Shown here one piece after another: positions 29,931 to 33,044 of a stretch of 33,044 bases of DNA. Numbering within the stretch: the stretch's first letter is position 1; every line of letters starts with the position of its first letter. Both the position numbers and the translations under genes were made by a program. Under the pieces are notes generated by a model, which was not told the origin of the DNA, did no database searches, and saw only the letters and a list, made by a program, of their open reading frames with translations. This DNA is from an uncultured Ignavibacteria bacterium (GTDB taxonomy: Bacteria; Bacteroidota; Ignavibacteria; Tepidaquicellales; Tepidaquicellaceae), in assembly GCA_937872315.1 (NCBI GenBank), contig CALMST010000001.1:1-33044 (forward strand), in the 5' to 3' direction.

Positions 29931-32204
29931 ATGAAAAAAATCATTCTAACACTTCAGATCATATTGATGCTGAATGCCGTTTTATATGCGCAGGTCAATA
30001 TAAAAAAAGGTTCAGAAATGTGTTCTGATAAAAAAATGAACAGTAAGAACCTGTCAAATTTATTTAATTTTGATTCCCCAAATAGTCCGGCGCATAGTTT
30101 TGATGTACAGGACTACAAAATTTATTTAGATCTAAGAAATTGTTTTATCTCACCGTACCCTAAGAGTTTCAATGCTAATGTGATCGTCACTTTCAGAGTA
30201 GACACAGCATTGAATTCTATTGCTCTTAATGCTGTGAATAGTTCCCTGACAGTAAGCTCCGTCAGCATGGGCGGTGTCAGTTTTACACATTCATCTAACA
30301 TTCTGACAATACAGCTTGACAGATCTTATGCTGCCGGAGAAACAGCACAGGTTAAGATCAATTACAGTCACAATAATGTTTCGGATAATGTAGTGTATGT
30401 TAGCAGCGGGTTTTTCTTTACTGACTGCGAACCGGAAGGTGCAAGAAAGTGGTTTCCTTGTTATGATAAACCTTCCGATAAAGCCACTGTAGATATTACT
30501 GCAAAAGTACCGGCTAATGTGAGACTCGGATCAAACGGCAGACTTAATGACTCACTGCTGACCGGTGATACATTGTATTATCACTGGATAAGCAGAGATC
30601 CTGTCGCAACTTATCTGACAGTTCTGACGGGAAAAGTAAATTATAATCTGAATATTGTTTACTGGCATAAGATCTCAAATCCATCCGACAGCGTACCTGT
30701 CAGATTCTATTATAATTCCGGAGAAAACATTACAAGCATTAAAACGAAAGTGCTGAATATGATGACTTATTTCTCGGAAAAATTCGGCGAACATCCATTC
30801 GAAAAGAATGGCTTTGCTACTCTCAATAATCAGTTCCAGTGGGGAGGCATGGAAAATCAAACGCTTACAAGTCTGTGTACCAATTGCTGGAATGAGAATA
30901 TCATCTCACATGAATTTGCGCATCAATGGTTCGGAGATATGATCACATGCGGCACATGGGCTGATATCTGGCTTAATGAAGGTTTTGCGACTTATAGTGA
31001 AGCTTTATGGTATGAAAATACAGGCGGATACAATTCATATAAAAATGATATTAATAATGATGCAAACAGTTATCTGTCAGGAAATCCCGGCTGGGCAATG
31101 TACAATCCTTCCTGGGTAATTGTTACTCCCGGAGTAAATGAACTGTTCAATACGCAGATAACATATTACAAAGGTGCATGTGTACTTCATATGCTGAGAT
31201 ACACGCTCGGCGACAGTTTATTTTTTGAAGCTATAAAATCTTATGGGACAGACGTTGCAGGTGGTTTTAAATATAATTCAGCGGTAACGGATGACTTTAC
31301 GGCAAAGATCAGCTCGGTTGCTGGTCAGGATCTTTCATGGTTCATAAACCAGTGGGTTAAAGAACCGAATCATCCAGTTTATCAGAATTATTATAATTTC
31401 AATTCTTTGGGAGGCGGTAACTGGAGTGTGAATTTTATTGCTCGTCAGATTCAGACAAATACTGTGTTTCATAAAATGCCTGTCGAACTGAAAATTTCAT
31501 TTAATTCAGGGGCTGATACAGTGATCAGAGTAATGAACGATGCTAACTATCAGTCGTTTGCTTTTAATTTTAACAGACAGCCAACCGGTCTGACTTTTGA
31601 TCCGGATAATAACATAGTGCTGAAACAAGGAACTACAACTCTTCAGTCAGCATCAGTTAAAACACTTACCCTGAATGCCTGCATTCAGGGATTTTATGAT
31701 GAAAATACTAATTCTATGATATCCGATACGATGACAGTATTCATGAGAAATACTGTGCCGCCTTTTTCGGTGATTGAATCAGATAAAAAAGTGTTGAATT
31801 CATCCGGACAGGGAATATTTACATTCTCTAATGTATTCAATGATGCGCCTTATTATATTCAGTTACAGCATAGAAACTCAATTGAAACATGGAGCAGTTC
31901 GCCGGGACAGATGTTCTCAGGTAATTCTCTTACTTATAATTTCACAATTGCTCAGTCAAGCGCATTCGGTAACAATGAGATCCTGGTGGATAATTCACCT
32001 GTGAGATATGCAATATACGGCGGAGACGTTGATCAAAATGATGCTGTTAATCTTGCGGATATAGTGGATATATATAATGATGCCGGCTCATTTATGACCG
32101 GTTATATTCCAACAGATGTAAATGGTGACAATATTACAGAATTAAGTGATATGATCATTGCATATAACAACTCCGCAGCATTCGCAATAGTGATCAGTCC
32201 ATGA
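29931..32204 (+). CDS. Secreted M1 family metallopeptidase with dockerin-like C-terminus
   Basis: The signal peptide covers the first ~20 residues (ending LYAQ). The aminopeptidase-N-type N-terminal beta domain (~40-240) includes EGARKWFPCYDKPSDKATVDI. The catalytic domain has the substrate motif GGMEN (305-309), zinc site HEFAHQWFGD (His327, Glu328, His331) and the third ligand Glu350 in WLNEGFATY. Residues ~555-690 look like an accessory beta domain. Residues ~698-757 carry two EF-hand-like loops (DVDQNDAVNLAD and DVNGDNITELSD), as in type I dockerins, ending FAIVISP. It probably cleaves N-terminal residues outside the cell. The C-terminal module may bind Ca2+ or serve secretion or attachment. 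Confidence 0.92.
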   Translation: MKKIILTLQIILMLNAVLYAQVNIKKGSEMCSDKKMNSKNLSNLFNFDSPNSPAHSFDVQDYKIYLDLRNCFISPYPKSFNANVIVTFRVDTALNSIALNAVNSSLTVSSVSMGGVSFTHSSNILTIQLDRSYAAGETAQVKINYSHNNVSDNVVYVSSGFFFTDCEPEGARKWFPCYDKPSDKATVDITAKVPANVRLGSNGRLNDSLLTGDTLYYHWISRDPVATYLTVLTGKVNYNLNIVYWHKISNPSDSVPVRFYYNSGENITSIKTKVLNMMTYFSEKFGEHPFEKNGFATLNNQFQWGGMENQTLTSLCTNCWNENIISHEFAHQWFGDMITCGTWADIWLNEGFATYSEALWYENTGGYNSYKNDINNDANSYLSGNPGWAMYNPSWVIVTPGVNELFNTQITYYKGACVLHMLRYTLGDSLFFEAIKSYGTDVAGGFKYNSAVTDDFTAKISSVAGQDLSWFINQWVKEPNHPVYQNYYNFNSLGGGNWSVNFIARQIQTNTVFHKMPVELKISFNSGADTVIRVMNDANYQSFAFNFNRQPTGLTFDPDNNIVLKQGTTTLQSASVKTLTLNACIQGFYDENTNSMISDTMTVFMRNTVPPFSVIESDKKVLNSSGQGIFTFSNVFNDAPYYIQLQHRNSIETWSSSPGQMFSGNSLTYNFTIAQSSAFGNNEILVDNSPVRYAIYGGDVDQNDAVNLADIVDIYNDAGSFMTGYIPTDVNGDNITELSDMIIAYNNSAAFAIVISP

Positions 32205-32614
32205 GATAAACATTTTATTTAACCTTTATCTGATTGCAGAGAATTATATTTGCTATTCATACATGAAAAACTAATTGCAACACTGATGACACTGATTTCT
32301 CTGGATTTATGCTTATATCTAAATGATCTTTGTATTCATATTTTTTAATTTTAATCTAAAAAATGTGAAAGTTAATTTTTCATAAAAAAATTAATAAATC
32401 CGTTTTTTTAGTTTAATCAGTGTAATCAGTGTGCAGTTTTTGTCATGAGCAGAGATTTCTGTTAATCCGGATTGCGTCTCAGCAGTTTTCAAATTTTCTT
32501 CCAGATCAGAAAAGTTCTTTCGGCAAATCTGTTATTATATATGTAAAATATTTAATCACACTTTTTACACTTTACCTAAAGCAATCTAACTTAGTTAAAT
32601 ATATGGCAGATATA
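32205..32614. other. Convergent spacer with large palindromic element
   Basis: No gene is supported; the plus frame at 32429-32659 overlaps both the palindrome and the minus-strand gene and has no family resemblance. Most of the spacer is the element at 32262-32447. The rest is AT-rich. Confidence 0.65.
32262..32447. repeat. ~186-base palindromic element with 9-base tandem units
   Basis: The left arm contains ACACTGATG-ACACTGATT (from about 32280) and the right arm AATCAGTGT-AATCAGTGT (32415-32432). These are two tandem 9-base units, inverted relative to each other. Flanking matches extend the symmetry: GC and CATGA-x-AAAACT outside, GGATTT (32303-32308) and AAATCC (32396-32401) inside. The centre is ~90 AT-rich bases. 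It lies between convergent genes. Similar intergenic repeats of ACACTGATT/GGATTT-type words occur in many bacterial genomes as I recall, but this cannot be checked here. Confidence 0.65.
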
Positions 32615-33044
32615 CTAGTATCCCGTAAGTTCAACATAGCCTCTGCCTTTTATTTCTGAACCATTTTTTCTTCCTTCTATCTTTACAGCCCCTTCCCAGT
32701 ATCTGACCGACACATTCATAAGCTGATCTTTTACAGCAGGTGATATTTTTAATTCAATGTTGTCTGAAGGAATTTTCAGGCTCCATCCTGAAGGATATTT
32801 CACACCATCCGGACTTTCCCAGTATTCAGTTACCTCAAGTATAACATTTTCTTTAATTACCGTTTTGACACTGCCTTTTTTATCTACTATTGTTCCTTTA
32901 CTGAAAATATCCGGACTGCCGTCATTCTTCCTCATCTGATAATACATTATCTCGGTGCTGTCATCGAGTTGAAGTGCAAACCAGTCCCAGCCTTTCTGAT
33001 CGTCACTTAATGCACTTGTGCTCCATTCACGGTCCATCCAGGAA
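32615..33044 (-). CDS. AttH/CrtC-type lipocalin-like protein, 5' end outside window
   Basis: The visible 143 codons are the C-terminal part of a larger protein. The frame stays open to the window edge and reads SWMDREWSTS at the point of entry, so the Met in that motif is internal and not a start. DREWSTSALSDDQKGWDWFALQLDD, MYYQMRKNDGS, WSLKIPSD, YWEGAVKIEG and GRGYVELTGY are hallmarks of the AttH/CrtC lipocalin-like family (PF07143/PF17186). These are often exported proteins beside MacB-like ABC transporter genes, which would lie beyond the right edge. The role in this organism is unknown. Confidence 0.85.
   Translation of the reverse strand, partial: SWMDREWSTSALSDDQKGWDWFALQLDDSTEIMYYQMRKNDGSPDIFSKGTIVDKKGSVKTVIKENVILEVTEYWESPDGVKYPSGWSLKIPSDNIELKISPAVKDQLMNVSVRYWEGAVKIEGRKNGSEIKGRGYVELTGY

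Follow-up and report, generated by a model that had tools for sequence, protein, structure and literature searches.

A gene-less inverted-repeat element with arrays of 9-bp units in an Ignavibacteria genome and its relation to repeats beside GxxExxY nuclease genes

The DNA analyzed in this study, referred to as the window, was a stretch of 33,044 nucleotides from an uncultured Ignavibacteria bacterium. Near its end, two convergent genes were located, namely, an M1-family peptidase gene on the forward strand (29931–32204; PF01433 and PF17900) and a lipocalin-like gene on the reverse strand (32615–33043; PF17186), which continued past the window end. A palindrome was present between these genes. 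Its left arm (32280–32297) consisted of two 9-base units of the general form ACACTGAT[GT], namely, ACACTGATG at 32280–32288 (+) and ACACTGATT at 32289–32297 (+), and faced two inverted copies, AATCAGTGT AATCAGTGT, at 32415–32432 (−). The outer ends were CATGA (32262–32266, +) and TCATG (32443–32447, −). On the inner side, AAATCC (32396–32401, −) formed the inner unit of the right arm, and GGATTT (32303–32308, +) was a possible inner-unit remnant of the left arm, judged by eye against the consensus of 30 related arms. The AT-rich centre (32309–32395) contained no remnant of a gene recognisable by hmmsearch or peptide comparison. The mirrored units and symmetric flanks described in the original prediction were therefore read directly at these positions. 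The arms were 18 nt each, 94% complementary, inverted, and separated by 117 nt.

The same prediction held that this order was too regular for chance, and comparison with shuffled sequences agreed. When the pattern was defined as a tandem 9-mer (≥8/9) whose 18-mer had an inverted partner (≥17/18) within 300 nt, it occurred once in the window and in none of 200 dinucleotide shuffles. The double unit ACACTGATNACACTGATT with up to three mismatches matched twice in the window, compared with a shuffled mean of 0.11, and two matches were reached in 2 of 100 shuffles. The RNA folds predicted for both strands, a check that had been proposed beforehand, were strong, with z values of −5.9 (+ strand) and −5.3 (− strand). 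It had also been stated that no known feature explains the palindrome. This was upheld as far as Rfam is concerned, whose covariance models gave no match at E up to 1 in 31500–33044, but not in full, as the element is a member of a group of inverted repeats with units of about 9 nt that are often found beside GxxExxY genes.

The insertion site was examined in three genomes of the same genus, including that of the window (G000). In G002 (locus L122), both neighbouring genes were adjacent, and the intergenic DNA aligned on either side with approximately 199 bases missing. In the blastn comparison of 32101–33044 with this locus, 32101–32255 (82.6%) and 32455–33044 (77.1%) matched contiguous G002 DNA with an overlap of 10 bases. 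The palindrome is thus an insertion relative to G002, and the likely insert, as delimited by blastn, spans approximately 199 bp (32256–32454), slightly more than the 32262–32447 originally proposed. In G001, more than 1 kb of other sequence lay between the end of the peptidase gene and the lipocalin gene. The arm profile described below gave no match in L122 or in the other same-genus locus (L121). Because the element was absent from both same-genus genomes, its gain in the lineage of the window is favoured. The ends of the insert were marked ambiguously. A possible degenerate 10-bp target duplication, uncertain and recognised by eye, consisted of ATATTTGCTA at 32246–32255 (ATATCTGTTA in G002) and ATTTCTGTTA at 32455–32464, which were identical at 7 of 10 positions, and its rival was an exact 7-bp direct repeat, GCAGAGA, at 32236–32242 and 32449–32455. 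Palindromes of the form GCAGAGA...TCTCTGC were also observed downstream of genes (L122, 2048–2104; L121, from 221; L026, from 840) and are perhaps a dispersed terminator-like repeat.

The empty G002 site folded as a terminator-like hairpin (−23.8 kcal/mol, z −5.9), which is split by the element in the window. This bears on the reading of the element as a bidirectional RNA hairpin between convergent genes, acting as a terminator or as a protector of mRNA 3′ ends. The position between convergent genes and the good folds of both strands speak for such a role, but the insertion interrupted a hairpin that probably serves as the terminator in G002, and the long centre keeps the arms 117 nt apart. 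Moreover, a scan for terminator-like sites with a compact GC-rich stem, a T tail and a loop of 3–8 gave none in 32100–32700.

The relation of the arms to repeats elsewhere was assessed with a profile built from 30 arms of other loci, the window being excluded from training. In the window, the two arms ranked first and second: the right arm matched at 32432–32398 (−), over model positions 3–38 of 40 and thus into its inner unit (22.4 bits, E 3.9e-6), and the left arm at 32279–32298 (+; 17.2 bits, E 1.7e-4). On the whole genome of the window, the same arms ranked third and eighth among 32 matches at E up to 1, so that other matches exist there. A second full copy of the element was not found in this genome, in which two further matches spanned 46 and 32 query bases only, and when 40 genomes, that of the window among them, were searched at the DNA level, partial matches only were obtained besides the window itself. 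Over 26 nt, the right arm shared 96% identity with repeats in G017 (C107) at 30459–30484 and 30992–31017, which bracket a GxxExxY gene at 30535–30867. The double unit ACACTGATNACACTGATT with at most one mismatch was detected in 20 of the 59 genomes searched, one of which was that of the window, and its reversed control in none. With regard to the genome scan that had been proposed at the outset, related elements were present in this genome and in others, though no second full copy was found.

Among the 28 double-unit loci from other genomes, which included two that overlap (L067 and L079), some were compact hairpins whose arms contained four units each, with the consensus GAACACNGATNACACNGATNNNACNGATTTNCACGGATA. 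A covariance model of the whole hairpin, trained on elements shorter than that of the window, matched 20 of 40 genomes at E up to 0.1, including those that supplied the training sequences; it gave no match in G000 at this threshold and missed the window element, with just chance matches elsewhere (11 bits). This miss may be due to the longer centre of the window copy and its degenerate inner units. A strict gapped pattern designed to capture near-perfect hairpins proved too narrow, matching 2 of 44 genomes, both previously found. In G014, about 40 CACNGAT units, densely arrayed in a single orientation, covered approximately 1.6 kb of C84 (L067/L079/L114), and further hairpin-model matches were present on C94.

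The genome of the window also contained a gene-less repeat of approximately 200 bp, of which 17 copies were aligned (L264, L265, L267, L270, L271, L274–L282, L284, L289, and L290). Its inverted ends, resembling TTACTAAAGTTGACCG and, inverted, TTTACTTAAGTTGACCG, surrounded a CACAGATT/ACACGGATT core, and by eye the repeat resembled the arms of an open GxxExxY cassette in the same genome (L108). Other repeats were noted in G000. At L024 (C277, 1–1150), a 123-bp repeat containing GCCACAGATT...ACACGGATT units was present in four copies and one partial copy, followed by eight copies, from about 977, of a 21-nt tandem repeat containing CACCAACAGTATC, and L027 (C378, 1–155) started with a long run of TTCAATG heptamers at the contig start.

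GxxExxY genes (PF13366/TIGR04256), which encode proteins of the PD-(D/E)XK type, were present in 36 of the 40 genomes examined, including that of the window. In 28 aligned proteins, D71 and K83 were invariant and E81 was shared by at least 90%; these residues fit the D...ExK motif. A search with the family profile gave no solved structure at E up to 1. The protein of L108 showed weak similarity to a Cas4b profile (E 9e-4).

A GxxExxY ORF was found in 5 of the 28 double-unit loci, compared with about 0.1 expected by our own estimate from 130 genes in 40 genomes, and none was found in the other 23. The reverse comparison started from the 130 GxxExxY matches, of which 91 loci were used in sets of 20, 11 and 60, the last chosen mostly by rank; some matches near contig starts and some of low rank were left out. 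One locus (L110) had no ORF, three (L099, L108, and L168) had flanks too short for an arm score, and one gene was present twice (L098 = L132) among the 90 rows obtained but was counted once in the following proportions. For 57 of 89 GxxExxY genes, a unit cluster lay no more than 200 nt away, compared with 9 of 78 at a distance of 400–600 nt and 4 of 89 within the gene itself; by the same test, 32 of the 89 genes had no cluster. When the upstream and downstream flanks were scored as inverted arms, 34 of 86 loci reached a score of at least 36, compared with 1.9% of mispaired flanks, and the medians were 33 and 20, respectively. In a further set of 80 loci, 78 of which had usable flanks, the medians were 40 for own-locus and 26 for mispaired flanks; because these loci belong to a single clade with common unit types, high scores arise between mispaired flanks as well, which weakens the contrast. 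The 9-nt periodicity over the flanks of the 90 rows was visible but weak (lag-9 identity of 0.338 vs. 0.286 in far flanks). In L100, L101, and L104 (G017, G032, and G025), whole repeats flanked the gene in direct rather than inverted order. GxxExxY cassettes also adjoined homologous neighbours in several genomes (synteny groups L080/L081, L083/L084, L086/L090, and L087/L088/L097/L106), and some of these neighbours resembled operon genes (ABC ATPase, NADH dehydrogenase), by eye only.

Within the window element, neither a GxxExxY gene nor a convincing remnant was found using ORFs, hmmsearch and peptide matches. The best hmmsearch E of its frames was 2.5, and the best short peptide match (E 0.029 over 9 residues) was taken as chance. 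Seven further loci of the genus were studied by inspection only. In G001 (C330), a TGAT-clade GxxExxY gene with a stop lay between such arms, and in the genome of the window, an arm on C50 lay next to a possible C-terminal GxxExxY relic, with a 14-residue match at E 0.002 against 90 proteins; another frame of this locus matched a different GxxExxY clade at E 0.004. This genome had five GxxExxY matches, four of which were in other clades and the fifth an unplaced fragment, and for this reason the window copy looks like an orphan.

Subsequently, the type of unit was compared with the phylogeny of the nuclease. Labels could be assigned for 56 of 90 rows, and no type was given to the remaining 34, which included both rows of the duplicated gene, so that the test was not affected by it. 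On the GxxExxY tree, the 56 labelled loci required 8 changes of unit type, compared with 19–25 in 300 shuffles. When one locus was kept per synteny group (29 loci, 20 draws), 5–6 changes were required, compared with at least 8 after shuffling. A clade of 13 GxxExxY proteins (SH-aLRT 99) contained eight GAT-labelled loci (L100–L104, L162, L176, and L182) and no other label, and its member L105 was of the GAT type by eye. The remaining 6 of the 14 GAT labels (L108, L147, L149, L169, L173, and L177) were placed elsewhere in the tree; because of this scatter, the GAT class as defined is not one lineage. The co-variation of unit type and nuclease may have come from cassettes inherited or moved whole, rather than from recognition.

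This co-variation is relevant to a simpler explanation, in which an unrelated transposase moved the element, an ordinary MITE-like hairpin, and the GxxExxY genes are passengers or parasites settled in the repeats. The 17-copy repeat of the same genome, gene-less and with inverted ends, looks like a classic MITE, and the 23 of 28 pattern loci in which no GxxExxY ORF was found would also be expected from this explanation. However, unit type tracked the nuclease clade even with one locus per synteny group, and we consider the MITE-like explanation unlikely, though it is the strongest of the alternatives. The window element itself shares with MITEs its short, AT-rich and gene-less body, inverted ends and clean insertion relative to the empty site of a relative, but differs from them in that its ends are unit arrays and only one full copy exists; its target duplication is ambiguous.

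Whether the arms are maintained as DNA words or as an RNA stem was evaluated in 15 related elements, hairpins chosen by eye and by a regular expression from loci already collected. The CACNGAT positions were conserved on both arms, and the variable unit position was mostly mispaired. In total, 73.1% of stem cells paired, compared with 26–40% when the arms were slid, which agrees with an RNA hairpin, though inverted copies must pair in any case. Covariation was no better than in shuffled alignments (score 0.061, shuffled mean 0.078; 485 of 500 shuffles at least as high), and changes on both sides were found in 9 pairs and 11 cells, compared with shuffled means of 9.8 and 19.2. As paired changes were no more frequent than in shuffles and CACNGAT was kept on both arms, conservation seems to concern the words and not the stem, favouring sequence recognition over an RNA stem for the arms. 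An RNA element is not the favoured candidate, as Rfam gave no match and covariation did not exceed shuffles despite the strong fold z, and a terminator or 3′-end protector is regarded as improbable. An isolated copy without structural conservation had been named in advance as the result that would speak against the palindrome: the full copy was indeed single in its genome and covariation support for pairing was absent, but the arm sequence was conserved across genomes.

Conservation of CACNGAT at the sequence level would also suit a regulatory operator, in which a DNA-binding protein would occupy inverted tandem sites of 9 bp, and a spacing of 9 bp is near one helical turn. However, the site lies between convergent gene ends, promoter-like sites were near chance (5 vs. 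3.5 in shuffles), and no such element was present at the site in the two same-genus genomes. An operator is thus very improbable.

In our assessment, the window element is probably a decayed non-autonomous inverted-repeat element similar to those of REPIN/RAYT systems, with a PD-(D/E)XK nuclease in place of the transposase, the mobilisation by the nuclease being inferred. Tandem words in inverted arrays, together with their co-variation with the nuclease clade, suggest recognition by the nuclease and spread in trans. In this reading, an old gene-less element entered this Ignavibacteria lineage at the terminator-like hairpin that separates the two convergent genes. Each of its arms is an array of approximately 9-bp units with the core CACNGAT, and the same arm type adjoins small GxxExxY genes in related genomes. 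A GxxExxY nuclease of the matching clade may recognise the repeated CACNGAT units and nick or cut at them, by which the element would be copied or moved in trans. This putative action parallels that put forward for RAYT transposases on REP doublets. The window copy, having no partner gene, would then decay.

In the available text of two reports on REP/REPIN and RAYT systems, a gene lies beside inverted repeats, gene-less copies occur elsewhere, and repeat and protein co-diversify (PMC2817692, PMC3116915). As far as these texts go, the present class is similar in that the repeat type co-diversifies with a partner protein, here GxxExxY, while the window copy has no partner gene. It differs in that the protein beside related arms belongs to the GxxExxY PD-(D/E)XK family (PF13366) and is not a Y1 transposase, that the arms are arrays of approximately 9-bp units, and that only one copy of the window type exists in its genome. 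Compared with GxxExxY/PDDEXK_3 cassettes (TIGR04256/PF13366), whose genes in related genomes are accompanied by arms of this kind, the window element lacks a GxxExxY gene, whether between its arms or next to them. In the open-access literature searched, to the extent of its available text, no paper on GxxExxY function, GxxExxY-linked repeats, PDDEXK_3 or the literal unit strings was found.

A broader proposal is put forward more tentatively, at somewhat less than even confidence. In this REPIN-like system, a PD-(D/E)XK nuclease (GxxExxY), and not a tyrosine transposase, would recognise arrays of approximately 9-bp units, each clade having its own word (CACNGAT, CACNAATT, C[AG]CNAAG, or CACAGAG), and would spread gene-less inverted arrays in trans, the window copy being a CACTGAT-type orphan. 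Taken alone, the window copy is a modest relic, and the interest rests with the class. If every clade does use a repeat word of its own, the common GxxExxY family would gain a testable DNA target, and short periodic repeats, a widespread class, would have a likely maker. Another enzyme type would then stand behind REPIN-like repeats.
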